Below, one piece after another: positions 23,013-41,230 of a stretch of 64,000 nt of DNA. The position numbers were made by a program, and so were the translations under genes. Where the stretch lies: NCBI GenBank assembly GCA_020161395.1, contig JAIUOE010000003.1, positions 372,001 through 436,000 on the forward strand, given 5' to 3'. Under the pieces are notes generated by a model that made no database searches, was not told the origin of the DNA, and saw only the letters and a program-made list of their open reading frames with translations. Position 1 is the first letter of the stretch, and each line of letters starts with the position of its first letter. This stretch comes from Bacteroidota bacterium. GTDB taxonomy: Bacteria > Bacteroidota > Ignavibacteria > Ignavibacteriales > Ignavibacteriaceae.

Positions 23013-26000
23013 TTACTTCATCAGCAACATTTTCTTTACGGAAACATAGTCACCGGCAGCAAGTTTATAAATATAAAAACCTGAAGCTAGTTCGTTTCCT
23101 ACGAACTTAAGATCATAGTATCTGCCTGCCTCAGCAATTCCGTCGAAGAGAACTGCCACTTCGGCACCAAGGGAGTTGTAAACTTTGAGTGTTGCTTTCG
23201 TATCCTCTTTGAACGCGAATCTGATCGAAGTTTCAGGATTAAACGGATTTGGATAATTCTGCTCCAGCACGAATCCGTTCGGAAGATTGTCAACAAGCAC
23301 TTCGACAACCGGACTGTACTCAAACTGCCCGTCGTTGTCGATTTGCTTCAGTCTGTAGGAAATTTTTCCGGTGCCAGCAGGTTTGTCAGGGAAGCTGTAA
23401 TATTTCGGTGAGTTCGACATTCCGTAACCTTCAACGAATCCGACTTTCGTCCATTCGGAATTGGAATATTTTCGTTCCACCTCGAAACCGTAGTTATTCA
23501 TTTCGGTTTTTGTTTCCCAGTCGAGAAGAACAGTGCCGCCGGAAACTTTAGCATTGAAGGAGGAGAGTTCGACAGGGAGGGCAGAAGGCTCCCCACCAGT
23601 AAATTGGGAAAATGAAGTCTGACTCGAAACGGTGAGGGTATTAGCAGTCGCATCGAGAGTTGTTGGCAAAACAGTCCAGAGCGTACCGTTGAATTTTCCC
23701 ATCACTAAGGAAGATTCCTGTGTTGGTTCACTCACATCTTCATCCAAATAATTAAGAGTGAGGTCATAATTAATACTTGAATTACCATCCCTGGTAATAT
23801 CCCAATAACGGGTGAGGTAGAGAGAACCCGGTCCCTTGCTCGGGTGTGGTGCATCTACTACTCTGACACCTATGGTTTCGGTACCGGAATTCAAAATTAC
23901 CTGTGCGGGAGAATATTCAGCTGTTCCTGTTTCATCGCCAATCGGAAAGAGAAGCGTTGAAGGGCCGGTACCGGTAAATTTTAACATCCCTGTTCCGTTG
24001 GTCACAATCATCTGTGTTGCAGAAGGCGTTCCGGAATAAGTTGCACCCGAAGACAACGAAAGATTAAAGTTGGATAAGCGGAGAACTCCCTCATCGAATC
24101 GTAATCTGTTTTGAATGGTTGTGTTTACCCCCAGCTCAACTCCCGCAGGATTCGAAAGAGCGAAGTAAGTGAAAACTGGTGAAGTAGTACCTGAGATTGT
24201 TTGAACTGAGGTACCATCGAAAACTACTTCCCTGGTGTTTGAATTAAATGTTCCATTGTTTGTGAAGTTTCCTTTTACGATCAGGTCTCCGGCATTAGGA
24301 CCATTGATGCCTCCCAACTTAAGAGTCCCGCCGTTCGTGATATTTCCAAACACAGTAAGGGGACGCTCCATCACACTTCCCGTAACTGACATATCCAAAG
24401 CAGAGCCAGCATCAATCGTTAAGTTACCTGCCATTTGACGGGCAGTAGTCGTTCCGGCATTACCGAGATTCAATGTCGTATTATTTGAAATCTGAACATG
24501 ATTCGGGTAACCTGCACCTGATGTGCTGCTCCATTCAAGACTTCTTCCGTAAGTTGTACCTGAATTGTACTTTAGAGTGGATGATGGCCCGTATATCGGG
24601 TAATTTGTCGATAAAAATCCACCCGAACTAATTTGAAGTGTCCCGTTTATCGTAACTCCGGCACCAAGATTAACTCCCCCGCCGATAGTAACATTGTTGA
24701 ATGTGCTTGTGGAATTATTGACTGTTCCTGATCCGGAAAATACAAGTGTTCCGGTTCCTGTTGTTAATGGTGCTGAACCCGTTATAGTAGCACCACTTCC
24801 AAAGGTTATGACACTTGAACCACAGTCGAAAGTTGAGGGTGAGTTAACATTTATATTGTTTGCAACGGAGATATTTGCATTTACTGTAACTGCTGAATTG
24901 TCGCTGACATTAAGCCAGTTAAGATTAAATGTGCCTGTTCCAGATATTTCCTGGGCTGCACCTCCATTGAAATCCACACTTCTCGAGTTGGTGTGAAATG
25001 TTCCGTTATTCACAAGGTTTCCTTTTATCTTTAAGTCGCCACCTGAAGTCTGTGAAAGAGAAAAGGCTTTGCTGCCGTTAATTGTTAGATTGCCATTCAG
25101 CTGTCTATATACATTAGCTAAACTTGCGAAATATACATTCCCTCCATTGATCACGACATTTTGAGGAACACCCTGACCTGATGCGACATTCGCATACCAC
25201 TCAGAAGCAAGTTCGTAATCATTATTGTACTGCAATGTAGAAGTCGCTCCGTATGTTGGAGCATTCACTGATACAAAACCTCCCGAGTTTAGAGCGAGTG
25301 TCCCGTTAATCGTAGAAGCATTTCCAAAATTTACCCCAGAGGAGAGATTTACATTGTTGAAAGGATTGGTACCGGTAAGCGTGAGAGTTGATGACCCGCC
25401 AAAAGAAACAGTACCGCCTGCTGTCATGTCAAGAGTGCCGTTGTTTGTCCAGTTGCCTTCAATCGTAAGTTGACCACTTGAAGTAAAAAGGAGACTCTTC
25501 CCGGAGTTAATTGTAATTTTCCCATGATTGTATGAAATTGCATTATCAACTGTTATATTATGGTTAATAACGATTGTAGAATTGACTACAGGAACTCCGC
25601 CTGTCCAGGTTGAAGGCGAACTCCAGTTTCCATCGCCGGCAGTTGTATATTCGATAAGGTCCTTGTAAATTTTATTTACAAAAAAATCATTAGCCGATCC
25701 TCCCCCGGTATCACCAACAAAAAAATTCACGGCATTGATTGTTGCACCCAATGATGAGAATACAGTGTTATCCAGCCCTGTACCTGCAGAAGCCGAAATT
25801 GAGATGCTACATGAACTTCCTGAACCTTTAACCAATGTAAAAGTTAGAACCGGCTTCGTTGCAGTACTGCCAAACGAAATCCATGTTCCCCCGGAATTGG
25901 TGGAATATTGATAGCCTGATGAATTAATTCGAAAAGTGAAAAGTGCAGACGAACCATTCATGATATCTACCCCACGACTCCCAATCGAAATGGCATCGTA

Positions 26001-26342
26001 AGACATTTGAAAAACAATTCTTTCATTTTCTCTCAAAGCAGTAAATGATATTTTTGCATTTTCGTACCCGGAACTCGACCAAATACCGAAAGATTTTGTG
26101 GGCGAGTTAAGTCCGGAATTGTGGGCAGATCCTAAAAAGACACCACCACTTCCGGAAATTTGCCAGGCGTTAAACCCGCTGTTGGTTGTAAAACTGCCAT
26201 TGGCAAAAGTGGAATAATTATCAGCACTATCCGTAGCAATATGGTTATAGCCCTGTCCATTCACACTTATGAAAGCAGCAAAAAGGAAGAGAATAAGAAA
26301 ATTCAACGAATTACGATTATAGCATAGCATTGCAATCACCAT
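23013..26342 (-). CDS. T9SS cargo: large beta-helix/adhesin-like surface protein (1109 aa)
   Basis: Signal peptide near the N-terminus (NSLNFLILFLFAAFISVNGQ), a lectin-like N-terminal region (about 35-220), then about 500 residues of imperfect repeats rich in Gly, Ser, Thr and Asn (such as NGTLQISSGGFLSTNYPIYG and NVTIGGGVNLGAGVTINGTL), typical of right-handed beta-helix or autotransporter-like passengers. A fibronectin-like segment starting LPVELSSFNAKVSGG precedes the type A T9SS sorting domain (NGFVLEQNYPNPFNPETSIRF to YVSVKKMLLMK). It should cross the outer membrane through T9SS and be released or anchored after C-terminal cleavage. An internal ATG at 26330 is an alternative start. Confidence 0.85.
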   Translation of the reverse strand: MVIAMLCYNRNSLNFLILFLFAAFISVNGQGYNHIATDSADNYSTFANGSFTTNSGFNAWQISGSGGVFLGSAHNSGLNSPTKSFGIWSSSGYENAKISFTALRENERIVFQMSYDAISIGSRGVDIMNGSSALFTFRINSSGYQYSTNSGGTWISFGSTATKPVLTFTLVKGSGSSCSISISASAGTGLDNTVFSSLGATINAVNFFVGDTGGGSANDFFVNKIYKDLIEYTTAGDGNWSSPSTWTGGVPVVNSTIVINHNITVDNAISYNHGKITINSGKSLLFTSSGQLTIEGNWTNNGTLDMTAGGTVSFGGSSTLTLTGTNPFNNVNLSSGVNFGNASTINGTLALNSGGFVSVNAPTYGATSTLQYNNDYELASEWYANVASGQGVPQNVVINGGNVYFASLANVYRQLNGNLTINGSKAFSLSQTSGGDLKIKGNLVNNGTFHTNSRSVDFNGGAAQEISGTGTFNLNWLNVSDNSAVTVNANISVANNINVNSPSTFDCGSSVITFGSGATITGSAPLTTGTGTLVFSGSGTVNNSTSTFNNVTIGGGVNLGAGVTINGTLQISSGGFLSTNYPIYGPSSTLKYNSGTTYGRSLEWSSTSGAGYPNHVQISNNTTLNLGNAGTTTARQMAGNLTIDAGSALDMSVTGSVMERPLTVFGNITNGGTLKLGGINGPNAGDLIVKGNFTNNGTFNSNTREVVFDGTSVQTISGTTSPVFTYFALSNPAGVELGVNTTIQNRLRFDEGVLRLSNFNLSLSSGATYSGTPSATQMIVTNGTGMLKFTGTGPSTLLFPIGDETGTAEYSPAQVILNSGTETIGVRVVDAPHPSKGPGSLYLTRYWDITRDGNSSINYDLTLNYLDEDVSEPTQESSLVMGKFNGTLWTVLPTTLDATANTLTVSSQTSFSQFTGGEPSALPVELSSFNAKVSGGTVLLDWETKTEMNNYGFEVERKYSNSEWTKVGFVEGYGMSNSPKYYSFPDKPAGTGKISYRLKQIDNDGQFEYSPVVEVLVDNLPNGFVLEQNYPNPFNPETSIRFAFKEDTKATLKVYNSLGAEVAVLFDGIAEAGRYYDLKFVGNELASGFYIYKLAAGDYVSVKKMLLMK

Positions 26343-26658
26343 CGGTCACTTGTTGTGGATTAATAAACTAATCAATAATGCGTCCGCAGATAGCGGAGCA
26401 GGATTAATAACTGCTTGTTATTTGTTTTCGAAGCATTTATGTGAGGGGAATTGGATAAATGCTATAATGTTAAATGCAAGATAGTAAAATTTGGTTCAAT
26501 ATGTCAAGAACTATTTTACAAATGTGAAGTGTATCATAAAAAAAGCTCCCGATTTCTCAGGAGCTTAAAAATTATTACCGGTTTTAAGTTAAATGGTCGA
26601 ATTAACTCTTTTCTTAATACAAGTTTCCGTGGAATCCGTGGAACCGTTAAAATTTATA
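26343..26658. other. Intergenic region between the two T9SS genes
   Basis: A 316-base gap with no gene. From right to left it holds the TTTCCGTGG phrase and terminator of the second T9SS gene, an A/T-rich stretch with a promoter-like TATCTTGC (about 26473-26480, minus strand) preceded at 21 bases by TTG, and a short GCAGATAGCGG-containing sequence (26384-26400) with a relative at 7660-7672. Confidence 0.5.
26543..26566 (-). terminator. Terminator below the 424-aa T9SS protein gene
   Basis: AAGCTCC and GGAGCTT flank the same 10-base loop as the terminator at 22869-22900, followed by T on the minus strand. Confidence 0.85.
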
Positions 26659-27933
26659 TTACTTCATCAGCAACATTTTCTTAACAGAAACATAATCGCC
26701 GGCAACAAGTTTATAAATGTAGAAACCGGAAGCGAGTTCTCCGCTGCCAAATTTCACATCATAGTATCTGCCTGCTTCGGCTGTTCCGTCAAAGAGAGTA
26801 GCAACTTCGGCACCAAGTGAGTTGTAAACCTTTAGTGTTGCTTTAGTATCTTCCTTCAGTGCGAACCTTATCGAGGTCTCCGGATTGAACGGATTTGGAT
26901 AATTCTGTTCCAGAACAAAACCGTTTGGAAGATTGTCAACCAGCACTTCAACTATCGGGCTGTATTCATACTTTCCGTCGTTGTCTATTTGTTTCAGTCT
27001 GTATGAAATTTTTCCAGTACCAGTTGGTTTGTCAGAGAAGCTGTAGAACTTCGGAGAATTGGTCGAGCCATAACCCTCAACAAAGCCGATTTTATTCCAA
27101 TCCGTCAAAGCGGATTTTCTCTCAACTTCGAAACCATAGTTGTTAATCTCGGTTGCGGTTTCCCATTTCAAATCAACAATGCCATTTCGGATTGCAGCGT
27201 TGAATGAGGTCAGTTCGACAGGGAGAGATTGCTCAGACCAAGCGGTAGATGGTGTAACACCACTTCCAGTACTTGGATAATAAATATATTTGTCCAAGAG
27301 TTGGTTGGTTGACCCTGTAGGATTTGAAATAGGGAATGTTGACCAAATATAATTCCCACTGGCATTATTAGTCCAGAATGAAATTCCCAATGGGGCCGAT
27401 GCCCCAGGTGTGAAACCTAAATCTGACCACGGAATCCTGATCCTGATTTCACCCCCGGTACCGGAAAAAACTACTTGTGAATTTGTGCCATCGTCTCCAC
27501 CCGTTCTTGAAACAAATACCCAATTACCAGAATTGACTGACCACCTTTCATATGCGTTGCCATTTGTGGTAGGTACTCCTCCGAAGGATGAATTATTTTC
27601 ATAATATAAATAGTAGTCAAATTTTTGCTGATTACCGCTGCTAAAAGTTGCTCCCTGTATCCCACTTAAACTTCCATTCGATCCATGAGGATCTGTATCA
27701 AAAGCAACATAGTACATATCTGATGAATAATTTGTGTTGCCTCCCGTCCAGCCAACATAGATATATGTACCATCCCAAGCAATATAATATGTGCAATTGT
27801 TATCTGTTCCCAGAGTGTAAGAAGCTCCAAAAGCGGAAGCATTATTCGTAGCTCCATCCATAGTCACAGTTTTTGGTGTTTGCCCAAACACACTCCACCC
27901 GCACAATATTAAAATTGTAATCAACTTTTTCAT
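26659..27933 (-). CDS. T9SS cargo with DOMON/CBM9-like N-terminal domain (424 aa)
   Basis: The signal peptide MKKLITILILCGWSVFGQ is followed by a beta-sandwich-like domain (about 20-235: TVTMDGATNNASAFGASY, YYIAWDGTYIYVGWTG, EIRIRIPWSDLGF) resembling DOMON/CBM9-type domains found in substrate-binding surface proteins. Then comes the same fibronectin-like plus type A T9SS sorting module as in the neighbouring gene (LPVELTSFNAA to VSVKKMLLMK), nearly identical over the last 170 residues. The start is ATG 27933, seven bases after GGAGGA; the ATG at 27939 is too close to it. Ligand unknown. Confidence 0.85.
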   Translation of the reverse strand: MKKLITILILCGWSVFGQTPKTVTMDGATNNASAFGASYTLGTDNNCTYYIAWDGTYIYVGWTGGNTNYSSDMYYVAFDTDPHGSNGSLSGIQGATFSSGNQQKFDYYLYYENNSSFGGVPTTNGNAYERWSVNSGNWVFVSRTGGDDGTNSQVVFSGTGGEIRIRIPWSDLGFTPGASAPLGISFWTNNASGNYIWSTFPISNPTGSTNQLLDKYIYYPSTGSGVTPSTAWSEQSLPVELTSFNAAIRNGIVDLKWETATEINNYGFEVERKSALTDWNKIGFVEGYGSTNSPKFYSFSDKPTGTGKISYRLKQIDNDGKYEYSPIVEVLVDNLPNGFVLEQNYPNPFNPETSIRFALKEDTKATLKVYNSLGAEVATLFDGTAEAGRYYDVKFGSGELASGFYIYKLVAGDYVSVKKMLLMK

Positions 27934-27999
27934 AAACATTCCTCCGAAGAGTTTTGATTAAACATATGTATTTCTATTTTCTCTAAAACCTCACTGATA

Positions 28000-28639: not shown

Positions 28640-28663
28640 AAAGCTGCCATTTCTGACAGCTTT
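28640..28663 (-). terminator. Terminator of the envelope operon
   Basis: AAAGCTGTC pairs with GGCAGCTTT (one G-U pair) around a 6-base loop, followed by T-rich minus-strand sequence. It lies about 80 bases below the stop of the 1066-aa Omp85-like gene and probably ends the transcript that starts at lpxC. Confidence 0.85.
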
Positions 28664-28746: not shown

Positions 28747-31700
28747 TTAAAAGTCTGTCCCGAGGGAAAAATAGAAAATCGGTTTACTGAAGCCGTCAAC
28801 ATTGTAAGCCCAGGCGAGATCGAACCTCAGGAGGAAGTAGAGAAAATATGTTCTCAAGCCAAAGCCGGTACCCATAAGCAGATCTTTGGTTATGGTGTTC
28901 CCTTTTTCATCTTTGGTGAAGAGACGGAGCTGCTCATTGTTCGTCCAAGCAGCACCTGCGTCAAAGAAGATGGTACCCATTATGTTGCTGAAGAAGAGAG
29001 GCAGACCACCTGTGATAAGGTATCTTATGAATGGAAAACGAAGTTCCACATTCATAAGTCCGTATTTGGTGCCCACCACTTCGGCATAGTTGTAACCGCG
29101 CATCGGAAGTGCAGTGGAGAGAAACACAAAATCGCTCGGAGAGTCGAGAGGAAGTCTTCCCGTTGACCAGTCACGGTTTATCCAGTTTTCCGTACCACCG
29201 ATAAAGAAGCGCTGTGGATTTGTACCCCAGGAATAGCCAAAGGAACCTCTGACAGCCAATGAATAGTCACCCCAGAATCTAAGATATTCACGATAATCTC
29301 CCAGAACGGAGTAAAAACCATATTTATCAGCCTGGATTATCGGGTTTGCCATAAATTCGAAGCGGTATCTTGTTCCGTCAATTGGAGCGGTGTAACCAAA
29401 AATAGTGTTGTCGTGTACAAAAGCAATGGATGGGACAAGAAAGGTATTTTCCCTCTGTGGCTCAAGAGTGTTGTCAAGATTTGTCTGTGTTGCGTTTGTA
29501 ACTCCGAGGCTAAGATCAAGTCTGTAGAATCTGTTCAGGGGATAGCTCGCAGAAATAACCGCTCCATAATTCCTGAATCTAAAGAAATTCAGGAAATTCC
29601 CTCTCTGCTGATAGATAAATCTTGCAGTGTGGAATGCAGACACACCTATATCCCACCTTCCCTTCAAGTAATAGTAAGCCAGACCGTAATCGCTGTTCTT
29701 AAGATCAATCTGAAGTGAAGTGAAGCCAATCAGTTTATGATCACCGAGCACATCGCTAAAGGAAAGCACCGTTGTTCCCAGCAGTCCGTAATATGTGCTG
29801 TAACCCGCATTTGCATACACCAGATCGGGTGAAAAATTGACTTTATATTTTCTTATTTTGAAATCGCCGTCATCTTCCAGCCTGTCAGGAAGTAAAAACT
29901 CGAGGTTGGGCAGTTTGGTCGTATCTTTTACTTTTGGAGCGTTATCGCCGAATGCAATTGTGGAATAGTCAATCAGTACAGAATCACCATAAGCTTTCAC
30001 AGTATCGCCAAAAACACCTGTAAACACTTCAACCTTTGTTTCAGAGGAATCCTTGTCGAGGGCATCGGGTTTTTCCTGTTCAAATTTCTTTACTTTATAA
30101 GTCGTATCAAACGGATTGGTGCCATTTCCACCCTTGAACTTGCTTCCTCCATTTACCAGTTCATTCATGTAATCTGTAAACGGAATTGAATCTTTATCGA
30201 TGGAAAGACCGAATGGATTATTTACCGTGAAAATATTGTACGAAGCTTTGTACATGGCATTCATGGCAAGTTTTTTTCCGTCATAGGAAGTGCTGATCTG
30301 GTCGAGACCGTTCAGGGAATTGGTAACGGGAGTAGGTTTATTTGTCGGTTTCCAGTCAGCATTTGGCTTTATTTTATAGATGTTGTTTATTCCGTTATAG
30401 TCAGAGATGAAGAGTACTTCGTCACCCGATTGTGAAGGAAGTGGATATTTTTCATCACTTAACGGATAATCTGTAAGCCTTCTGATTGCTCTGGTTTCGA
30501 CTTCAATTTCGTATATGTCCATCTGACTGTAATCGTGACGGTACATTTCATATCCCTCAAGTTTACTCTTTGCTTCAGTGAGAGTGTCGCGATCTGAGGA
30601 GAAATAGACCTTTTTACCATCGTAAGACCATCTTGGATCTGAATCGGAAAAAATGTCATTCGACAGATTTTCGATCTTTCCTGACTCAAAATCATAGATA
30701 TAGATATCCGATGTGTGGTAATTTTGAGCTGCGAAAACGAGTCTCTTGCCATCCTTTGACCAGTCAACTGTTTCTATTCCGGGGAATCTTACAGGCACGC
30801 TGACCGCATCACCACTTTCAGCATCAACTATAAAAATGGCGTCTTCAGCACCGCTTTTTGCCGAAATTGCGATCTTTTTTCCATCAGGTGACCACGAGAT
30901 TCCGGGAGTAAGAATATTCAACTCTTCAAAATCGACGGTTCTGTTACCCTTTACAAGTCTTTTTATTTCCTTACCTGTGTTTGCATCCATAAGATAGACA
31001 TCGAAGAAATAATCCTTGTTCGAGATATAAACGATCTTGTCACCCTGCGGAGAAATTGCAGGAGAGATATTATAAGAGGAGTTGTCCTTTTTTGGATCGG
31101 TCAGCCTTTTTGCAAACTCATCAGGGTCTTTGCGGTTGGTGATATCGGGCCAGAACACCCTCTTTATATCTTTCTTCCATCTCTCGCTTAATTCGTCAAC
31201 TGTCAGACCGATGGAAGCTTTCATTCCCTGATCTACTCCACCTTTTCCCTTTACATTCATCACAAGTTCGGCAACCTTTTCTCTGCCGTACTTTTTAGCG
31301 ATGTAATAGAAAACCGCCTGTCCACCTCTGTAAGCAAAGTAGCCGTCGAGATTTTTGATATCGGGAAGATACTCATTGATAGCCGCATCCCTGATAAACT
31401 GATCAGTGTTGGTATCCCAGCCGAGTGAAAGATACTCCGCAAGCCCCTCCGAGAACCACAAAGGAAGATTTACTGCTGAATTGCTGGAGATAATATTTTG
31501 AAGTGCACCTCCGTAAAACATGTCATTCATTACACCGTGAACCAGTTCATGGTGGATTACATGTCTGAACATTTTGTAGTTACCGGAGAAAGGAAGAACG
31601 ATCCTGTTCTTGAAGAGTTCTGTGAAACCACCTGTTCCCTCTCCAAGATAGGAATCGATTACATTCGTTTCCTGAAATTCATTCTGTGAGTCGTAAAGAA

Positions 31701-31947
31701 TTACGCTGATTCTCTTCTGAATCGTATAATTCAAAGAGGAATGAATCTGAGCCAGTGCATCCTCAATTGCTGTAGCAGCAAACTCCGCAATATTTTTCCC
31801 TTCCATGGTAAAATATATATCGAAGTGTTTTGTCTGAATGTAGTACCAGTCGTAGTCTTTGTATTGAACTTTATTCCTGCCAAACTGCCCGAAAGACTGT
31901 GAAATGATTACCACAACAAAAACAAAAAATAACGCCGCTTTTCTCAT
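28747..31947 (-). CDS. Metallopeptidase-PD40 propeller-Omp85-like barrel fusion (1066 aa)
   Basis: Signal peptide (1-20). Residues about 30-260 form a gluzincin-like (peptidase MA) domain with HHELVHG giving the zinc site (H133, E134, H137) and WFSEGLAEYLS giving the third ligand E167. Residues about 270-600 hold TolB/PD40 propeller repeats (GISWSPDGKKIAISAKSG, DPRWSYDGKKVYFSSDRD). Residues about 690-1066 are beta-rich with PMRGYNYAEVVGTKYGL and end in FYFSLGTDF, as in Omp85/BamA barrels (conserved RGY loop, terminal Phe). It should sit in the outer membrane with the propeller and peptidase in the periplasm. It lies 24 bases below rnr and in the same run as tamB, so it may be the barrel partner of TamB; that role is inference. 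Automatic annotation would call it TolB-like. Confidence 0.85.
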   Translation of the reverse strand: MRKAALFFVFVVVIISQSFGQFGRNKVQYKDYDWYYIQTKHFDIYFTMEGKNIAEFAATAIEDALAQIHSSLNYTIQKRISVILYDSQNEFQETNVIDSYLGEGTGGFTELFKNRIVLPFSGNYKMFRHVIHHELVHGVMNDMFYGGALQNIISSNSAVNLPLWFSEGLAEYLSLGWDTNTDQFIRDAAINEYLPDIKNLDGYFAYRGGQAVFYYIAKKYGREKVAELVMNVKGKGGVDQGMKASIGLTVDELSERWKKDIKRVFWPDITNRKDPDEFAKRLTDPKKDNSSYNISPAISPQGDKIVYISNKDYFFDVYLMDANTGKEIKRLVKGNRTVDFEELNILTPGISWSPDGKKIAISAKSGAEDAIFIVDAESGDAVSVPVRFPGIETVDWSKDGKRLVFAAQNYHTSDIYIYDFESGKIENLSNDIFSDSDPRWSYDGKKVYFSSDRDTLTEAKSKLEGYEMYRHDYSQMDIYEIEVETRAIRRLTDYPLSDEKYPLPSQSGDEVLFISDYNGINNIYKIKPNADWKPTNKPTPVTNSLNGLDQISTSYDGKKLAMNAMYKASYNIFTVNNPFGLSIDKDSIPFTDYMNELVNGGSKFKGGNGTNPFDTTYKVKKFEQEKPDALDKDSSETKVEVFTGVFGDTVKAYGDSVLIDYSTIAFGDNAPKVKDTTKLPNLEFLLPDRLEDDGDFKIRKYKVNFSPDLVYANAGYSTYYGLLGTTVLSFSDVLGDHKLIGFTSLQIDLKNSDYGLAYYYLKGRWDIGVSAFHTARFIYQQRGNFLNFFRFRNYGAVISASYPLNRFYRLDLSLGVTNATQTNLDNTLEPQRENTFLVPSIAFVHDNTIFGYTAPIDGTRYRFEFMANPIIQADKYGFYSVLGDYREYLRFWGDYSLAVRGSFGYSWGTNPQRFFIGGTENWINRDWSTGRLPLDSPSDFVFLSTALPMRGYNYAEVVGTKYGLMNVELRFPFIRYLITGGLPLFFSNIMGTIFFDAGAAWTNNEQLRLFTKDEKGNTITKDLLMGTGFGLRTYFLYFLLRFDLAWAYNVDGFSKPIFYFSLGTDF

Positions 31948-31971
31948 CTTTTCTGCCTCGAATAAAAATCA

Positions 31972-34080
31972 TTAAGCAATTGTAAAATCAACATTTGACC
32001 TCTCGGGATTCACCCGGATAAGTTTGGTTCTCAGTTTGTCGCCAAGTCTGTAAACCCTGCCGCTTCTCTCACCGCGGAGACAATAATTCTTCTCCTCAAA
32101 AGTGAAGTAGTCTCCTTCGATGTCGCGGACATGCACCAAACCTTCTGCAAGAGAATCTGCAAGTTTAACAAAAAATCCAAAACTTGTCACACCTGAAATT
32201 ATTCCGTCAAATTCTTCTCCCACAAGTGGAGTAAGGTACTCGATGTATTTCTTTCTTACCGACAGTCTTTCTGCTTCCACAGCAGTTCTTTCGGTTAGTG
32301 AAATGTGAGCGCAGATGCCTCTTAATTCAGTCTCATTGTATAGAATCTTCCCTTTCGTGGAAGCATGGTGGAAAAGGATTCTGTGAACAAGCAAATCGGC
32401 ATATCTTCTGATCGGCGAAGTAAAATGTGAATAATACCCGAATCCCAGACCGTAGTGTCCGATATTGTCGGTGGAATAAATCGCTTTAGCCATGGTTCTG
32501 ATTGAAAGCTCGCTCACGAGCACTTCTTCTTCTTTTTGCTTCACTGCCTCCATAAGAGCATTGAACTGCTGAGGAGTCGGAGAATCAGAAAAATTGACCA
32601 AAAATCCGAGTGATTTCACAAATCTTGCGAATTCTCTCATCTTCTCTTTGTCCGGCTTGTCATGAATTCTGTAAACAAACGGTACAACCTCGGTTTCGCT
32701 TTTGCTCTTGTTTACATGTTCAGAAACGATTTTGTTGGCAAGCAACATGAACTCTTCGATCATTTTGTTGCTGTCCTTCATCTCTTTTCGTTTTACACCG
32801 AGCACTTCACCCTCGGCACCGATAAGAAATTTCACTTCATCGGTCGCAAAGTCGATACTCCCCGCTTTCATCCTCTTTGACCGAAGAGTTTTGGCTATTT
32901 TGTTCAATATGGTGATTTCGGAAGCGAGGTCTCCTGTACCCGTCTCGATTACCTGTTGTGCTTCCTCATAAGAAAATCTTCTTTTACTGTTTATGACAGT
33001 TTTGGCAATTCTGTAGTTTAAAACTTTCCCGCGCGAGGTCATTTCAACCACTACCGAATATGTTAACCTGTCCCTATATGGGACCAGGGAACAAATACCG
33101 TTTGAAAGCTCCTCGGGTAACATCGGAATAACAGCTCCAACAAGATAGACACTGTTTCCTCTTTCTAGGGCTTCCTTGTCGAGAGAGGTTCCGGGTCTGA
33201 CATAATGGCTTACATCTGCGATATGGATACCGATTTCATAATTGCCGTTTTCAAGGGTTTCGATCGAGAGAGCATCGTCAAAATCCTTTGCATCTTCCGG
33301 ATCAATGGTGAAAACATTTTTGTTCCTGAAGTCTTCCCTTTTCGCAGTTTCCTCTTCCGGCACTTCTTCGGAGAAAGACCTTGCCTCTTCAAAAGTCTTT
33401 TTGGCAAATTTGAAAGGCAGGTTATATTCACGGGCGATTGTGATGACATCAACATCCACACCTTCCCCTTTACCCACCACCTCGACAACTTTTGCCTCCG
33501 GATTGATCTTCGGGTTACTCCAGTTGATCTCTCCGACAAATACCCTGTCACCCGGTAAAGCCCCGTTAAGGTCGGCTTCAGGGATGTAGATGTTCCTGTG
33601 AATTTCGGGGATATCCGGTTTCAGTATGTAAAACGAACCTTCTTTTGATATGATTCCCGAAATTTCATGCCATTTTCTTTCCACAACTGAAACAATCTGT
33701 CCCGTCATGAGTACCCGGTTTCTTCCTTTGAGTTCCTTCGCAGCAACTGAAAGTTCAACCGTGTCACCATGAAAAGCCGTATTGAAGTAACGGGAGGAGA
33801 TGTAATATCCACCACCCTGCACCCGGTCCTTGAAAACGAAACCCGAGCCGTCCTTTTGGATATTGAATTCACCCTTCACAGTCTTGTCCTGTGTCCTGGG
33901 CATATATTTGAATCTTTTTCCGTCGCGGACAAGAAATCCTTCTTCACTTAGCTGGTGAAGAAAGGCTTTCATTGCCTCATATTCCTGTTCGGTGAATATA
34001 TCGAGGTGTTTTGCCAGTTGCTTTGCCTTTACAGGCGTGTTTGCATTCCTTTGAAAGTATGCTTTGATCTTGTTTTTCAT
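31972..34080 (-). CDS. rnr: Ribonuclease R
   Basis: A 702-residue 3'-5' exoribonuclease that degrades structured RNA. An N-terminal winged-helix region (1-60) and cold-shock domains (about 70-225) precede the RNB catalytic domain with the metal-binding Asp cluster in IDPEDAKDFDDALSIE, and ADVSHYVRPGTSLDKEA; a C-terminal S1 domain (about 615-700, EEFDGIISGVTSFGFFVKL) ends the protein. Length is near the usual 700-800. The ATG shares its A with the tamB stop (TAATG). Confidence 0.95.
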   Translation of the reverse strand: MKNKIKAYFQRNANTPVKAKQLAKHLDIFTEQEYEAMKAFLHQLSEEGFLVRDGKRFKYMPRTQDKTVKGEFNIQKDGSGFVFKDRVQGGGYYISSRYFNTAFHGDTVELSVAAKELKGRNRVLMTGQIVSVVERKWHEISGIISKEGSFYILKPDIPEIHRNIYIPEADLNGALPGDRVFVGEINWSNPKINPEAKVVEVVGKGEGVDVDVITIAREYNLPFKFAKKTFEEARSFSEEVPEEETAKREDFRNKNVFTIDPEDAKDFDDALSIETLENGNYEIGIHIADVSHYVRPGTSLDKEALERGNSVYLVGAVIPMLPEELSNGICSLVPYRDRLTYSVVVEMTSRGKVLNYRIAKTVINSKRRFSYEEAQQVIETGTGDLASEITILNKIAKTLRSKRMKAGSIDFATDEVKFLIGAEGEVLGVKRKEMKDSNKMIEEFMLLANKIVSEHVNKSKSETEVVPFVYRIHDKPDKEKMREFARFVKSLGFLVNFSDSPTPQQFNALMEAVKQKEEEVLVSELSIRTMAKAIYSTDNIGHYGLGFGYYSHFTSPIRRYADLLVHRILFHHASTKGKILYNETELRGICAHISLTERTAVEAERLSVRKKYIEYLTPLVGEEFDGIISGVTSFGFFVKLADSLAEGLVHVRDIEGDYFTFEEKNYCLRGERSGRVYRLGDKLRTKLIRVNPERSNVDFTIA

Positions 34081-37000
34081 TAAAACTCTATTTTGTATTT
34101 TAGACCCATTTCATTGATCATCGTGTTGTTTGATGATCCTTCGCCTATCGACTCCCGTCTTTCAATCCTGATAAGGAAATTTTTTATCACGGGAATCTCA
34201 AACCTGAATGTGGCTGCAGAAAGGTCCTGGAAAACATTGGTGGTACCACCAAATGAATATTTAATTGTGGATATCTGCCCGGAAAGATTGAACTTTGTTT
34301 GATTTCCGGCAGCCCTGACCTCGAGTGATTTTACATAATCACCAAGATAACTTGATAACAGCCCTCCTAATAATGAACCGGCAAGTGAAGTGGCGGTTCC
34401 CTGTATTGTGTTTATTTGCCCTTCGGCACTTGATTTATCCGCTTCTGTCAAATCTGATTTGAACTTCCCTGTAAGAATAAACCAGACTGCGTCTGCTTTG
34501 TCATACTGGGGTGATGGAACTGCATTCTTTATATTATCCTCACCTACATAGACAGCAATGTTGTCTGTTTCCTTTGCAAACTTTGTAGAGAGTTCGTCCA
34601 TACTTCCCTTAAGTTTCAGTTTTACCTGAACCGGCTGCTCATTGCTGCTACCCTTGGAAGAGAAAACATAGTAGGAATTGTAGTTCGCAACGATATCGAG
34701 ATAAGGATTAAAAATTTCCTTTTCGAATCTCAAAGTACCCAATGCTGCGAATGTTTTAAGATTTAAAAATTCAAGTGTCGATTCTTCAGATACTTTTAAC
34801 TCACCCTGAACATTTTCGAACCCGCCGAGTTTTTCATAGTTCAGTTCTCCCTCGAGGTAGGTGGTGAGTTTCTGATTTGCCTCCTGTGAGAGGATCATCG
34901 TCATCTTCGAGTTCTTCGACATTGTTATTTTGATTTGATACTCGAGATTAAAAGGTGTTTGCTTCACCCCGGCGATAGCGGAATCTTTGTATTGCCTGTC
35001 ATCCTCGAGAAAAGAAAGGAAAGTGGAATCGAGCACCCCGCCGGTATAATCATAATTCATATACTTGTAAATGTAATTGTCACCGGCGTTTGAAACCCCG
35101 CTCTGAGTGGGAGGAATAGTAAGGTCTGTTTTATCGAGATTTATCGAAGCTTTTACAAAGTAGTTGTTCCTGTTAATGTTAAGTACAATATCCTCATTGG
35201 TTGAGACCACAAGTTTACCGAAAATCGGGAATTCCTTTGTCGGCTTCTTACTGTCCATTACCGTAAGATTGCCACCAAGCCTTATTTGTCCCGACTTTAG
35301 TTCATAACCTGTAAGGTGAAGTGAACCCGTACCTGTTATTTTTCCGTAGAAATCGAGATTGCCTTCATTGGTGACAGCAAGTTTTTCAATGGTGAGGGTG
35401 GAATCATTCAAAACAACCCCTGCCTCGAGACCGTAAATCAGATTGGTCATTGCCACTCTGAACAAGCCGCCCTCAATTTCTGCAGTTCCATTCTTGGAAA
35501 GGTTGGGGTAGTATCCTGAAATTCTGATCTGAGAACGGAATAAACCTGTCAGTTCTTTCACATTCGGAATAAAACCGTTGAGAGCACTAAGTGAGAAGTT
35601 TTTCGCATCTATTCGCAAATCTGTAAGTTTATCCTTAACAAAATCAAATTTCGAATCCGCAAAGGATATCCTGTATGGTATCACCCCTGTCACAGCAAGA
35701 AGCGAGTCATCCCCCTCTGTTTTACCGGAATAAAAATAGCCTGTGGGACGAATTTCCTCATTTTCGTAAACAGCAGAGAATTTCAACTTTCCGAGCGTTT
35801 GCTTTTGGTACTTTATCGCATCTATCCGGAAATCGGAGTGGATCACAGGCGACTCGAAACCTCCTCTTGCACGAACAGCAAATTTGATATCTGCATCCAC
35901 AGGTTGTGCAATCGGTTGTTTTAAGATATCACTCATAATCTCGTGAAGAGAGATGTTCTCGATTTTTGCATCTGCCATCAGCGAATCTTTATCAAGTCTT
36001 GCGTCAAGACTTACAATCTGCCTTTGACCAATTCCCAAAGAAAAATTCTTGACAAAAAGGGCATCATTACTGAAAGAAATGACTGTATTTGCCATATTCT
36101 CGAGTTTATATCCCTTATAGTCTATTTTGGTCTCATACATATCCAATTCGAGAGAATCTTTCATGAAATCGACCACCAGGGCTATCCGGGCTTTGACCAT
36201 CTCATTGTAATTCACATCCAGGCGTTCGAGATCGAGTATCGATTTGTCGAGAGAAACTACAAGTTCGGTATTCGAAAGGGTATCGGCTCTACCCCTCTCA
36301 ATCATAAAAATCTTTTTTGTCGTGCTCTGTATGGAACCCTTGATACTCCCGATCTGAATCTCATTTGAAGGGTGTGAAAGTTTTATCTTTGAATTCGAAC
36401 CCCACAATATCAAAGTACTGGATGAATCAGAAGCACGCAAACGAAGAAGATCAAGATCGTTATTCAATGAAAACAAAACTTTCGTAGTATCCAGCACAAT
36501 CAGCCCGGAAAGAGAACCTTGAATATCAAAGGTTCGAAGTTTCAGAAACCTTTTTAAGGGTCCTAAATCCTTAACCTGAAGTGAATAAGAGAGAGAGTCA
36601 TTGGACTTTACACTAAATCCCCTGTTTGTGGGAATGGGGGCTTTAGCATTTGCGACAGCCGCTGAATCCTCGAAGAAATCGGGGTAGTAGTTGGAAAGAA
36701 TTTTTGAGAGGTCTGCAAACAAATTTGTCGATTCTGTCCCCAGATTAGTCCCGAGAGTGGCATAACTGAACCTCCCTGCTGTGGACATGGTGAAGAGGTT
36801 CGAAGTTATAAAAATATCCTTTTGCATATCGGGTGTTGCCGTCAGTTTGATATTGGCATCTATCTCACCGAGGGAATCCCCTTTTATCTTTGTATCAAGA
36901 AGATTAAGATTTGCATTCAGCACCATGTCGTCGGGATTGAGACCTTTTCCCTCTGCATCGAAAGTAAAATTGATTGATGAATTTTCCATCGAATTGCCCG

Positions 37001-38609
37001 CAAAATACTCCAGGTCAATATTCCTGAAAGTGGAACTGATCGAGTAAGACGGACTCTTAAGGTCAGACATGTCCAAATCACCTTTTATCTCACCCTGCTG
37101 TGCACCCGGTAAACTGGCTGAGAGTTGAAAGCCGATTTTGCCGTTGTTTCCTTTGGTTTTTACAGTAAAACGATCAAAGAAATATTTCCCGATCGTTGAC
37201 TGATCACCGTCAAAATCAAGTTCGAACTCGGCATTTTCAGGATTGAAACCATGACCTCTGGCTCTTATTTTCGATGTAAGATTAAAAGGCAGGTTCACAT
37301 ATTTGCTTATGTCAAGTTTTTCTGTTCTCGCATCCACTTCATAGTAAGGTGCCGCTTTCGAGAAGTCGAATTTATAACTGCCACTGATATTTCCTGCAGG
37401 CGATCTGAGCCCCATGCCACCCGAAAATGTAAGAGGTGATCCGATGAACCCGAGACTGTCGATCTGAATTGAAGGAAAATCGAGATATTTTTGGAGCTGC
37501 AATGAAGGCATTAATGTGTGTATATCACCAGGTGTTAGCACTGAATTTTTTATACTCGCAGTCATTCTTAATTTGTCAAAATCCATCAAATTAAGAAGCG
37601 TCCCGGTTAACGACAGGTCGGTTTTCAAAGTCTTAAGTTTTAGCTTTGCAATCTTTGTATTAACCAGATCCCCGGACGCAGCCAGATCTATCTCCATCGC
37701 ACCCTTCATGAAGTCGAAACCTGCGATCAAAGACGAAATGTCATCAAAATGAAACGGGGCACAAACGAGATCCATCTCGAAATTTGCTTTTTTCAGAGAA
37801 TCGGTTGTAAAATTATTAAAAACATTCAGCTCATCCGTCTTGTAGTTGAGAGTTATCTCACTTTTCCTGGTGACTACTTTAAGATCACCGACATTTATGC
37901 TCCTGCCGGCAAGTTTCAATTCCCCCGACAACGATATTTCAGGTGTATTCAATAAATTGGGCTCAAGATGGAATTTTTTGATCTTTACATCGTATCCGTT
38001 TTTCGCAATATCCACACTTAAATCGTCCAATTTTATATCGATGTTCAGTAGTCTTAAATCATCGTAATTGAGAGAAGTGTATTCCTCTGTTGAAGAAAGT
38101 TTGTCCCACTTTCGATATAAAATTGAGGAGTTGGTCAACTCTATTGTGCCGGCTTTAATAACAAAAGGAAATGGCTTTGAAACGGTATCGATCTCTTTTT
38201 TTTCGGAAGGTTTGGGGAGTATCTTCACAAGATTCAATACACCGTTCGAATCAACTACAAGATTTGCGTGAAGCCCGTCTATCGCCAATTTATCGGCATT
38301 TAATCTGTCGCTCAAAAATTCCAGCAGTTTGGGATACACTTCCAATCGCTTTATGAAAAGTATTTCCGTATTGGCGGAATCTGCAATCCTGATATCATTT
38401 ATCATCAGTGAGGTGACAATTGTTCCTTCTATTGTGCCTATAGTGATTTTCCCGCGGAAAGTTTCGTTGAGGATGGTTGTAACTTTATCTTTAACGATGG
38501 AACGGAACAAGGATGTCTGCGAGAAAACCAGAATTGCGGTCACCAGCATCAACAGGAAGTAGAGTGTACCTCTTGTATATTTAAGGATGTATGCCGGTAT
38601 TCGCTTCAT
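34080..38609 (-). CDS. tamB: TamB-like translocation/assembly module protein (1509 aa)
   Basis: An AsmA/TamB-superfamily protein: one N-terminal membrane helix (about 15-32, LYFLLMLVTAILVFSQ), a very long repeated beta-strand region forming a hydrophobic taco-like groove (residues 40-1050), and a C-terminal DUF490/TamB domain (about 1060-1509, ending LKYKIEF). These proteins span the periplasm and help deliver outer-membrane proteins or carry phospholipids. The family usually works with an Omp85-family barrel (TamA or TamL). The candidate partner here is the barrel protein two genes downstream. It overlaps rnr by one base and lies four bases below rfaE2. Confidence 0.9.
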   Translation of the reverse strand: MKRIPAYILKYTRGTLYFLLMLVTAILVFSQTSLFRSIVKDKVTTILNETFRGKITIGTIEGTIVTSLMINDIRIADSANTEILFIKRLEVYPKLLEFLSDRLNADKLAIDGLHANLVVDSNGVLNLVKILPKPSEKKEIDTVSKPFPFVIKAGTIELTNSSILYRKWDKLSSTEEYTSLNYDDLRLLNIDIKLDDLSVDIAKNGYDVKIKKFHLEPNLLNTPEISLSGELKLAGRSINVGDLKVVTRKSEITLNYKTDELNVFNNFTTDSLKKANFEMDLVCAPFHFDDISSLIAGFDFMKGAMEIDLAASGDLVNTKIAKLKLKTLKTDLSLTGTLLNLMDFDKLRMTASIKNSVLTPGDIHTLMPSLQLQKYLDFPSIQIDSLGFIGSPLTFSGGMGLRSPAGNISGSYKFDFSKAAPYYEVDARTEKLDISKYVNLPFNLTSKIRARGHGFNPENAEFELDFDGDQSTIGKYFFDRFTVKTKGNNGKIGFQLSASLPGAQQGEIKGDLDMSDLKSPSYSISSTFRNIDLEYFAGNSMENSSINFTFDAEGKGLNPDDMVLNANLNLLDTKIKGDSLGEIDANIKLTATPDMQKDIFITSNLFTMSTAGRFSYATLGTNLGTESTNLFADLSKILSNYYPDFFEDSAAVANAKAPIPTNRGFSVKSNDSLSYSLQVKDLGPLKRFLKLRTFDIQGSLSGLIVLDTTKVLFSLNNDLDLLRLRASDSSSTLILWGSNSKIKLSHPSNEIQIGSIKGSIQSTTKKIFMIERGRADTLSNTELVVSLDKSILDLERLDVNYNEMVKARIALVVDFMKDSLELDMYETKIDYKGYKLENMANTVISFSNDALFVKNFSLGIGQRQIVSLDARLDKDSLMADAKIENISLHEIMSDILKQPIAQPVDADIKFAVRARGGFESPVIHSDFRIDAIKYQKQTLGKLKFSAVYENEEIRPTGYFYSGKTEGDDSLLAVTGVIPYRISFADSKFDFVKDKLTDLRIDAKNFSLSALNGFIPNVKELTGLFRSQIRISGYYPNLSKNGTAEIEGGLFRVAMTNLIYGLEAGVVLNDSTLTIEKLAVTNEGNLDFYGKITGTGSLHLTGYELKSGQIRLGGNLTVMDSKKPTKEFPIFGKLVVSTNEDIVLNINRNNYFVKASINLDKTDLTIPPTQSGVSNAGDNYIYKYMNYDYTGGVLDSTFLSFLEDDRQYKDSAIAGVKQTPFNLEYQIKITMSKNSKMTMILSQEANQKLTTYLEGELNYEKLGGFENVQGELKVSEESTLEFLNLKTFAALGTLRFEKEIFNPYLDIVANYNSYYVFSSKGSSNEQPVQVKLKLKGSMDELSTKFAKETDNIAVYVGEDNIKNAVPSPQYDKADAVWFILTGKFKSDLTEADKSSAEGQINTIQGTATSLAGSLLGGLLSSYLGDYVKSLEVRAAGNQTKFNLSGQISTIKYSFGGTTNVFQDLSAATFRFEIPVIKNFLIRIERRESIGEGSSNNTMINEMGLKYKIEF

Positions 38610-38613
38610 GCTT

Positions 38614-39093
38614 TTATCCGCCGTATTTCTGCAGTATCAATTCGATTATACTCGTTGTTGAACGGGATGTGACAAAAGGAATGTTGGTGGTTACTCCCCC
38701 GTTTGCTTCAACTATGTCCTTGCCCACAATGTTGTCGAGAGACCAGTCACCCCCTTTTACAAGTATATCAGGCACCAGAGTTTTGATCAACTCAAACGGA
38801 GTATCTTCATTAAATATTGTTACAAAATCGACAGGTTTCAGATTTGCCATTGCAAATGCTCTTTCATCCTGAGGAAGCAGGGGTCTTTTGTCCCCTTTTA
38901 TTCTTCTCATCGACTCATCTGAATTCAGACCAACAACGAGAATATCGCCCAAAGCTTTCGCTTTTGTTAAATAATCGATATGTCCTTTGTGAATCAGATC
39001 AAAACAGCCGTTCGTGAAAACAACTTTCTTACCCGTCTTCCGAAATTCATTACGAAGTGCTGAGAGTTCGTCCCAGTTGTATAAATATTTCAT
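38614..39093 (-). CDS. rfaE2: D-glycero-beta-D-manno-heptose 1-phosphate adenylyltransferase
   Basis: A 159-residue nucleotidyltransferase: TNGCFDLIHKGHIDYL has the HxGH motif, followed by VVGLNSDESMRRIKGDKRPLLPQDER, the pattern of RfaE domain II. It adenylylates heptose 1-phosphate in the ADP-heptose pathway for LPS core. In many bacteria it is fused to the kinase; here it is a separate gene overlapping rfaE1 by four bases (ATGA). Confidence 0.93.
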   Translation of the reverse strand: MKYLYNWDELSALRNEFRKTGKKVVFTNGCFDLIHKGHIDYLTKAKALGDILVVGLNSDESMRRIKGDKRPLLPQDERAFAMANLKPVDFVTIFNEDTPFELIKTLVPDILVKGGDWSLDNIVGKDIVEANGGVTTNIPFVTSRSTTSIIELILQKYGG

Positions 39094-40085
39094 CGTCTCC
39101 CCTCAATGATGGTTTCGAACAGGTTATCTATTTCGACAGGCACAATACCGACCTCTTCACAGACGATACCTGCAGCATAATTTGCTATAAAACATGCTTC
39201 ATAAATATCCGCTCCGGCACTTAATGCGAGGGTAAGAGTTGAGATTACCGTATCACCTGCACCCGAAACATCCGCAACTTTCCGTGCTTTAGTGGGCATC
39301 ATTTTTGGTTCGTTCTTTTTGTTAAACACAGCTATACCATCTTCTCCCAGCGTCAGGAGGATGTTTTCAGCTTCAAGTTTCTCCAGGAGAATCTCTCCTG
39401 CTTTCAGAGCATCATTTATCGTTTTGATTCTGAACCCCAGAATGTCACTTGCTTCTTTCCGGTTTGGTTTGAAAACAGTAACCCCCTTGTACATAAAAAA
39501 GTTATGAAATTTGGGATCAACTGTAACCAGTTTCCGCCTGTTATTACAGAGTTCAATCACTCTACTGATCAGGGAAGCTGTAAGGACACCTTTGTTGTAG
39601 TCCTGAAGAATGACTGCATCAATCTGATCAATATTGTTTTCCAACAGATTAAAGAGACGGTTCTCAGTCTCCTCACCTATATCGTCCTTGCTCTCACTGT
39701 CGATTCTTACAACATGCTGTGACCCGGCTATCACTCTTGTCTTCAATGTAGTGGGTCTTTGTGTGTCCACAACCAGCCCGCCTGACTTAATGTTCAGTCC
39801 CGAGAGAAGGCTCTTAAATATCCCTCCGGCGCGGTCATCTCCGATTATTCCGAGAGGAAAAGGCTCTGCATTCAGATGAAGAATGTTGTTAGCACAGTTG
39901 GCAGCTCCACCAAATCTGTAAAATTCGTTCTCCACATCAACAACAGGCACCGGTGCTTCAGGTGAAATTCTCTTCGCACCGCCCATAATGTATCCATCGA
40001 GCATCATATCGCCAATAATGGCGATTTTCCTCCCCGAAAAGGAGTTTTTTAATTGAATTAATCTTTCGTTTTCTACCTTAATCAT
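39090..40085 (-). CDS. rfaE1: D-glycero-beta-D-manno-heptose-7-phosphate kinase
   Basis: A 331-residue PfkB-family sugar kinase: GDMMLDGYIMGGAKRISPEAPVPV is the RfaE substrate motif, FGGAANCANNI binds sugar, and ADVSGAGDTVISTL is the PfkB anion-hole motif with the catalytic Asp. It phosphorylates heptose 7-phosphate at C1. Translation of rfaE2 overlaps its stop. No gmhA, gmhB or waaD is in the window, so the rest of the pathway is encoded elsewhere. Confidence 0.93.
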   Translation of the reverse strand: MIKVENERLIQLKNSFSGRKIAIIGDMMLDGYIMGGAKRISPEAPVPVVDVENEFYRFGGAANCANNILHLNAEPFPLGIIGDDRAGGIFKSLLSGLNIKSGGLVVDTQRPTTLKTRVIAGSQHVVRIDSESKDDIGEETENRLFNLLENNIDQIDAVILQDYNKGVLTASLISRVIELCNNRRKLVTVDPKFHNFFMYKGVTVFKPNRKEASDILGFRIKTINDALKAGEILLEKLEAENILLTLGEDGIAVFNKKNEPKMMPTKARKVADVSGAGDTVISTLTLALSAGADIYEACFIANYAAGIVCEEVGIVPVEIDNLFETIIEGRR

Positions 40086-40108: not shown

Positions 40109-41230
40109 TTATTTTTTATTCCCCTTTTTTGCAACACCACCCCAGGTACCGAGAGGGTTACTCAGATCTATCCTCCACAGTCCGTTCTCGGAAGCCAGCC
40201 AGATGTACCGTTTATCGAATTCCATCGCAAAAAAGCTGTTTGCCGGGATATTAAGATCGCCGGGATTGCTCGAGATTATTTTGGTACTGTTTCTGTCGAT
40301 TATCGTGATTCCTCTACCGTACTCTTTTTTGATATCAGTATCGAACTCATATACCGCCGCCCAGATTGTGTTCCCGACTTTAATCATCGAATAGACACCA
40401 TTTCCGGGCAAGCCTGAACGGTTGTCAAGTTTGTCCCATTTCGCCATCCGGTTAAATCGGTAAATACCGCCAACATTAAAATCGGGCATTTCGGGAGACC
40501 GGAAATCCTGATTCCCAAACCAGATAAACTCCTTGTCGAAGAGGATTGAATTGACAGAAACCCTCATTCCTTCTGAGCGGAAGGCTCCGTCTTTATTCGA
40601 GATGAATTCACATTTACCTGTCTCAAATTCACCATCAGCTTTGTCGAATTTATAGAGTCCACCTTCGGTCACAATCCAGACATACCTGTCATTTTCGATG
40701 AAAAAGCGTTTTACATTGTTTGTGGCAGTCTCACTACCTCTGGCGAGATTGAAGTCTTCGTACTTTTGTCTCTTGACATTGAGTATCGAGAGGTTAATAA
40801 ATCTCCCTATCCACAAAAGTCCTGTTGATTTGTCATATTTCAAACCTCTAATCCAGTTGCCGTATTCGCCACCTTCGGCAAATTTTCTCTTCTTCCATGA
40901 GTCTTTTTTCTTGTCATAGATGAGGAGTCCATCGCTGGTTCCTGCCCAGACAAAATCCTCATTCGCCTCAATGCAGTCGATAAGGCGGTCTTTAACTCCT
41001 TTTTCACCGTCTGCCATTGAAATCAACTGATTCGATGAAGCTTCATACCTGAAAATTCCATTTCCGTATGTCGCGAGCCAGAAGTCATTACCATCTCTCA
41101 CGAAAGCCGTAACTTTGGCACCACCGGCAATCTGAAAGAAATCAGGAGGGGAAGCAAGAACCGTCAGGCTCACTAATAATAAAACCGTTAAAATTCTTTT
41201 AATCTGCACCTTGTTAATAACTCTCCGCAT
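40109..41230 (-). CDS. Secreted beta-propeller protein, two-component-regulator propeller type (373 aa)
   Basis: An N-terminal signal-like helix (about 12-27, ILTVLLLVSLTVLASP) precedes repeated propeller blades (DDFWLATYGNGIFRYEASSN, EDFVWAGTSDGLLIYDKKKD, DRYVWIVTEGGLYKFDKADG, RYIWLASENGLWRIDLSN) like those in the sensor part of hybrid two-component proteins, but with no kinase domain attached. It is probably a periplasmic binding or assembly protein. Its ATG overlaps the panB end by 17 bases; rfaE1 follows after 23 bases. Confidence 0.75.
   Translation of the reverse strand: MRRVINKVQIKRILTVLLLVSLTVLASPPDFFQIAGGAKVTAFVRDGNDFWLATYGNGIFRYEASSNQLISMADGEKGVKDRLIDCIEANEDFVWAGTSDGLLIYDKKKDSWKKRKFAEGGEYGNWIRGLKYDKSTGLLWIGRFINLSILNVKRQKYEDFNLARGSETATNNVKRFFIENDRYVWIVTEGGLYKFDKADGEFETGKCEFISNKDGAFRSEGMRVSVNSILFDKEFIWFGNQDFRSPEMPDFNVGGIYRFNRMAKWDKLDNRSGLPGNGVYSMIKVGNTIWAAVYEFDTDIKKEYGRGITIIDRNSTKIISSNPGDLNIPANSFFAMEFDKRYIWLASENGLWRIDLSNPLGTWGGVAKKGNKK

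Follow-up and report, generated by a model that had tools for sequence, protein, structure and literature searches.

A POTRA-less Omp85 protein with zinc-peptidase and TolB-like propeller domains encoded beside tamB and rnr, a candidate envelope assembly and quality-control factor of a Bacteroidota bacterium

The window analyzed in this study is a 64,000-nt stretch of contig JAIUOE010000003.1 (assembly GCA_020161395.1) from a Bacteroidota bacterium, and coordinates below are window positions unless another contig or locus is named. Its minus strand carries, immediately downstream of tamB and rnr, a gene whose 1066-residue product combines, in a single chain, a gluzincin peptidase with a TolB-like propeller and an Omp85 barrel (hereafter called the fusion). 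A preliminary description of this locus had recognized a zinc-peptidase site, PD40 propeller repeats and a C-terminal region resembling an Omp85 barrel, and had proposed that the protein may serve as the barrel partner of TamB. The gene and the parts of its product are located as follows.

28747-31947, minus strand: fusion gene (peptidase-propeller-Omp85, 1066 aa), final gene of its run; open reading frame (ORF), Pfam, NCBIfam and structure model
31888-31947, minus strand: putative signal peptide region, residues 1-20, with no lipobox Cys; direct reading of the sequence
31123-31887, minus strand: gluzincin-type peptidase domain, residues 21-275; Peptidase_MA_2 match and full-length model
31447-31551, minus strand: zinc site, H133-E134-x-x-H137 plus E167; ortholog alignment and direct reading
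30208-31095, minus strand: TolB-like beta-propeller with PD40 repeats, residues 285-580; Pfam, NCBIfam and structure matches
29878-30150, minus strand: linker, residues 600-690, poorly conserved and modeled with low confidence; full-length model and conservation
28750-29880, minus strand: Omp85 16-strand beta-barrel, residues 690-1066; profile, predicted structure and fold search
29092-29100, minus strand: RGY, residues 950-952, in the barrel loop joining strands 11 and 12; alignment (Arg invariant) and model

The N-terminal domain is matched by Peptidase_MA_2 over residues 62-262 (Pfam, E 1.3e-13) and the propeller by PD40 (Pfam, E 4.6e-16), whereas Pfam gave no Peptidase_M48 match to the fusion. 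Two motifs, HHELVHG and WFSEGLAEY, supply the HExxH sequence beginning at residue 133 and the downstream Glu ligand (E167) that together characterize gluzincins (Peptidase MA clan). H133, E134, H137 and E167 are invariant in 77/77 orthologs, which comprise 54 order-level sequences and 23 from elsewhere in the class and phylum, and because of this invariance we consider selection for catalysis to be strong. Mean majority conservation reaches 0.76 in the peptidase and 0.74 in the barrel but only 0.31 in the linker, a contrast that, together with the invariant zinc ligands, speaks for a functional enzyme. TolB is the best match to the propeller of the full-length model and also the top solved match of the whole chain. 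No POTRA domain was detected in the fusion by Pfam even at an E value of 1, and the peptidase and propeller fill that place.

An AlphaFold 2 model of the C-terminal 377 residues (690-1066), built from the 77 orthologs, contains 16 barrel strands (mean pLDDT 88.2, pTM 0.82). When this model was searched with Foldseek, the top solved fold was TamA from P. aeruginosa (8us1, E 4.1e-12, TM score by query length 0.60), followed by BamA. The Arg of RGY is invariant in 77/77 orthologs and the C-terminal residue of the fusion is Phe; the protein therefore has both the Omp85 motif (V/L/M)RG(F/Y) before strand 12 and a terminal aromatic residue. The RGY-type motif of BamA and TamA likewise sits in a long loop between strands 11 and 12. 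Independent sequence evidence comes from a profile of the fusion family, which reaches BamA (5or1, E 4.3e-5). The NCBIfam TamL model also matches residues 883-1047 (E 6.6e-9), although below its curated cut-off. The Pfam Omp85 model (PF01103) missed the barrel; despite this miss, the idea that the C-terminal region is not Omp85 was rejected on the basis of the 16-strand model and the fold matches to TamA and BamA. The coordinates and motifs given in the preliminary description, which were checked against the ORF list, Pfam, NCBIfam and the sequence itself, all hold. Its PD40 repeats are borne out by Pfam, its zinc site by Pfam and by the invariance across orthologs, and its Omp85-like barrel with an RGY loop and terminal Phe agrees with the predicted structure; the invariance of the zinc ligands and of the RGY Arg argues against chance occurrence of these features.

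The remaining genes and features of the run are the following.

28640-28663, minus strand: terminator-like hairpin and T tract, just 3' of the fusion gene; pattern match only
31972-34080, minus strand: rnr (RNase R), between tamB and the fusion gene; ORF, Pfam and conserved order
34080-38609, minus strand: tamB (diverged TamB, 1509 aa); ORF, NCBIfam and phylum-specific profile
38614-39093, minus strand: rfaE2 (heptose nucleotidyltransferase-like); ORF and conserved order, with identity from the preliminary description and sequence
39090-40085, minus strand: rfaE1 (heptose kinase-like); ORF and conserved order, with identity from the preliminary description and sequence
40109-41230, minus strand: 373-aa protein with a Reg_prop propeller-repeat match, kept in the gene run; Pfam

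The spacing is tight, with a gap of 24 bases between rnr and the fusion gene, a 1-base overlap between tamB and rnr, 4 bases between tamB and rfaE2, and a 4-base overlap between rfaE2 and rfaE1. Because the terminator-like hairpin, found by pattern match only, follows it, the fusion gene is probably the last gene of the transcription unit. The 373-aa Reg_prop protein, encoded between panB and rfaE1, is kept in most order-level relatives at 35-98% identity. Farther downstream of the fusion gene (23013-27939, minus strand) lie genes for two large secreted-type proteins whose near-identical C-terminal segments resemble type 9 secretion sorting domains.

A full-length ortholog of the fusion is encoded in 59/59 genomes sampled from the order (46 genera), and a scan of another collection returned only two close relatives, an Ignavibacteriaceae bacterium and a Chlorobiota bacterium. 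The order-level relatives largely retain the run lpxC-lpxA-lplA-panB-(373-aa propeller protein)-rfaE1-rfaE2-tamB-rnr-fusion, and tamB, rnr and the fusion gene are consecutive on the same strand in all 52 genomes in which the three could be read. Two genomes, G014 and G029, are exceptions in which tamB is not near. The genomes compared beyond the order all belong to the window's own phylum, with families coded f1, f4 and so on. The tamB-rnr-fusion order recurs in one family within the class (f10) and two outside it (f19 and f30), and coordinates indicate that it is likely also present in f4 and f5, in which the distance from tamB to the fusion gene equals the size of rnr. Elsewhere, tamB-rnr is retained without the fusion (f14, f15 and f16), rnr-fusion occurs without tamB (f22 and two f4 genomes in which the contigs end at the break), or neither the tamB-rnr nor the rnr-fusion link is seen (f6, f7, f9, f11, f13 and f37). 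From this distribution we conclude that the gene order is old and has been broken repeatedly. In family f24, TamB is present but no fusion was detected. The reverse case, fusion without TamB, was considered for f27 and rejected because PF04357 finds TamB there, and no such case stands. A Pfam scan of the neighbors of unlinked tamB genes yielded nothing informative. The fusion is thus real, ancient and conserved, and since its linkage to tamB is ancient, a shared envelope role of the two is likely.

The assignment of tamB required some care. The N-terminal part of its product is matched by NCBIfam TamB (E 2e-11) and Pfam DUF748 (E 8.5e-12), but the Pfam TamB domain (PF04357) matches neither this protein nor any other in the genome, and the label was doubted for this reason. 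A profile constructed from the TamB domains that other families of the phylum carry matches residues 1113-1428 (E 5.6e-13), which restores the label, with that caveat. Judged by these matches, the product is a diverged TamB, and it is the only TamB found in the genome when its own sequence is used as the query. Note that surveys based on PF04357 would count this genome among those without TamB, since the protein escapes the Pfam model. A different genome in the survey (G303) has two TamB genes, one (L166) in an rfaE1-rfaE2-tamB-rnr run and the other (L167) tail-to-tail with a TamL-like gene.

Besides the fusion gene, the genome contains seven further loci that match Omp85. One of these (contig C5, L109 6163-8169) encodes a 668-aa protein with three POTRA domains whose highest-scoring NCBIfam model is TamL (E 4e-50; 171 bits, below the cut-off of 400), and the possibility that the genome lacks another TamA or TamL was therefore rejected. 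This TamL-like gene, which has no evident lipobox, lies in the context rpsB-tsf-pyrH-frr-(TamL-like)-yicC-gmk and not beside a tamB, so that no canonical TamA or TamL gene adjoining another tamB-associated operon was found in the genome. The protein is present in 57/59 order relatives, and the NCBIfam TamL model finds matches in 287/296 phylum genomes. TamL of F. johnsoniae copurifies with TamB, and the tamL and tamB genes of Bacteroidota are reported not to belong to one operon (PMC12045153). Given that Bacteroidota TamL pairs with TamB though unlinked, the separate location of the TamL-like gene here is the expected arrangement. Two other Omp85 loci on contig C1 were also recorded. The first (L114 7853-10426) encodes an 857-aa protein with no POTRA match and an N-terminal part of ~570 residues without a Pfam match, and the second (L111 8400-11132) encodes a patatin-POTRA-Omp85 (PlpD-like) protein adjoining hslUV-like genes.

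The same genome also encodes a paralog of the fusion (947 aa, contig C2, L113 9761-12604) with the same three-domain architecture and an intact HELTH...E site. It is 28% identical to the fusion over most of its length, falls in a separate clade of the tree, is not linked to tamB and is present in most order relatives; unlike the fusion, it is matched by Pfam Omp85. Families with a canonical TamL, as well as other families, have more distant full-length relatives. The zinc site is intact in some of these (f20, f32, f39, f40 and f41), but it is gone in six relatives (f23, f32, f34 and f36), where, for example, HHELVH is replaced by SYQITR while the propeller and barrel matches stay. Destroyed HExxH motifs with retained propeller and barrel were noted in these families at L265, L266, L267, L268, L273, L276 and L280, and we regard such proteins as probable pseudo-peptidases. 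The zinc-less relatives form their own clade on long branches in the fusion tree, at an uncertain position.

Among described Omp85 proteins, the WD40-Omp85 subfamily (Heinz and Lithgow 2014, PMC4104836) provides a close architectural parallel in that a POTRA-less barrel likewise follows a TolB-like propeller, as it does in the fusion. The main text of that paper mentions no zinc-peptidase head and no tamB-rnr linkage for the subfamily, whereas the fusion has both. The 'Metallo' Omp85 subfamily named there is defined by PF00149, a domain other than the peptidase of the fusion. By architecture, the protein thus fits as a WD40-Omp85 member with a conserved peptidase head absent from that description. 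TamA and TamL share with it an Omp85 barrel, TamA being the best solved fold, and the fusion gene is linked to tamB. However, these proteins have POTRA domains, and TamL a lipobox; the fusion has a peptidase and propeller instead, lacks the three POTRA domains and has no Cys in its signal region for an N-terminal lipid anchor. By domain content, therefore, it is neither TamA nor TamL.

Could TamB of this lineage nevertheless use the fusion as its Omp85 partner, giving a translocation and assembly module (TAM) that carries its own protease and may exist alongside a TamL-TamB pair? The strict tamB-rnr-fusion order within the order, its recurrence in f10, f19 and f30, and the TamA-like fold of the barrel speak for such a pairing, although adjacency alone does not prove a physical pair because the RNase R gene lies between. 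We also compared distance covariation in 40 genomes after removing the distances of linked control genes. Fusion-TamB covariation (r 0.67) exceeds that of the linked control genes, but TamB covaries more strongly with the TamL-like protein over all 40 genomes (0.79), the three pairings being about equal within family f1; this leans toward the TamL-like protein without deciding the partner. The near-universal presence of TamL-like Omp85 proteins also weighs against the pairing, as does the separation of tamB from the fusion gene in many families and the absence of a detectable fusion from f24. Moreover, TamB docking on TamA requires POTRA1 of TamA (PMC4525385), and the fusion is POTRA-less. On balance we consider this partnership unlikely. 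Of the interpretation offered in the preliminary description, the 16-strand Omp85 barrel and the ancient link with tamB stand, the latter seen in the gene order of the order and of other families in the phylum, but the role of the fusion as the barrel of TamB is not established. Less likely again is an arrangement in which TamB of early-branching Bacteroidota relatives would serve two barrels, one POTRA-bearing and TamL-like, the other the protease-gated, POTRA-less fusion encoded in the operon of tamB, with the zinc peptidase of this second TAM variant deciding the fate of cargo delivered by TamB and a derived clade having lost catalysis while keeping the architecture.

Two other explanations were weighed. 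The fusion might act mainly as a scaffold whose propeller and barrel tether envelope machines in a TolB/Pal-like or BamB-like manner, with the peptidase being secondary or regulatory. TolB is the best solved match of the whole chain, no protein of the genome scores above the curated TolB cut-off and the best-scoring match to that model is the fusion itself, and the related clade has a dead zinc site. However, because the TolB model passes its cut-off in just 2/14 control genomes, the absence of a strong TolB match says little, and the invariance of the zinc site in 77/77 members of the ortholog clade counts against this explanation. We judge the scaffold explanation improbable, more so than either arrangement involving TamB. 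The faintest prospect is that the barrel secretes the peptidase or displays it on the cell surface. Like the fusion, PlpD has an enzyme domain N-terminal to an Omp85 barrel, albeit a different enzyme, and this patatin-Omp85 protein is described as delivering its enzyme domain to the surface (PMC4104836). A patatin-Omp85 protein is also encoded in the present genome, but it retains a POTRA domain and the fusion has none. Surface display would require passage of a folded peptidase and propeller totaling ~560 residues. TolB-like propellers are typically periplasmic, and order-wide conservation together with linkage to housekeeping envelope genes better suits an internal role.

We propose instead, at about even probability, that the fusion is a POTRA-less Omp85 factor for outer-membrane protein assembly and quality control acting beside TAM, and that the main partner of TamB is the TamL-like protein. 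The insertion or secretion of outer-membrane proteins is the task of Omp85 proteins, and separate periplasmic proteases usually perform quality control at this step. In the proposed mechanism, a signal peptide would export the fusion and its C-terminal 16-strand barrel would anchor it in the outer membrane, its peptidase and propeller presumably reaching into the periplasm at the place usual for POTRA domains. The propeller may dock partners or substrates in the manner of TolB and BamB, and the peptidase, which would lie beside the barrel seam, may trim or degrade outer-membrane proteins that become stalled or misfolded while being inserted. We infer this periplasmic orientation, the proteolytic activity with its substrates, and the role in quality control of outer-membrane proteins. 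The fusion would be co-expressed with tamB and lipopolysaccharide (LPS)-precursor genes from one envelope-biogenesis operon and would act beside TAM, while the separate three-POTRA TamL-like protein would be the main Omp85 partner of TamB. The logic may be comparable to that of BepA, an E. coli zinc metallopeptidase that promotes or degrades LptD during LptD assembly on BamA (PMC8423444). Both cases would place a gluzincin HExxH site near an Omp85 barrel to police outer-membrane protein assembly; BepA, however, is a periplasmic M48 protein, whereas the peptidase of the fusion belongs to Peptidase_MA_2 and is fused to the barrel.

Several observations weigh against this proposal. The operon link to LPS and TamB genes could just as well reflect lipid transport or a task related to LPS. 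The related clade that lost the zinc site keeps the propeller and barrel, which indicates that not every member needs catalysis. Also, four M48-type peptidase loci are present elsewhere in the genome, so that BepA-like quality control may be covered by other proteins.

If the assembly and quality-control proposal is correct, a barrel with its own invariant zinc peptidase and propeller would constitute a single-chain assembly and quality-control device, found in every order relative tested and in much of the phylum. Being encoded in the tamB-rnr run, the fusion is a concrete candidate for an additional factor associated with TAM, and the sister clade with a dead zinc site would permit catalysis to be separated experimentally from scaffolding.

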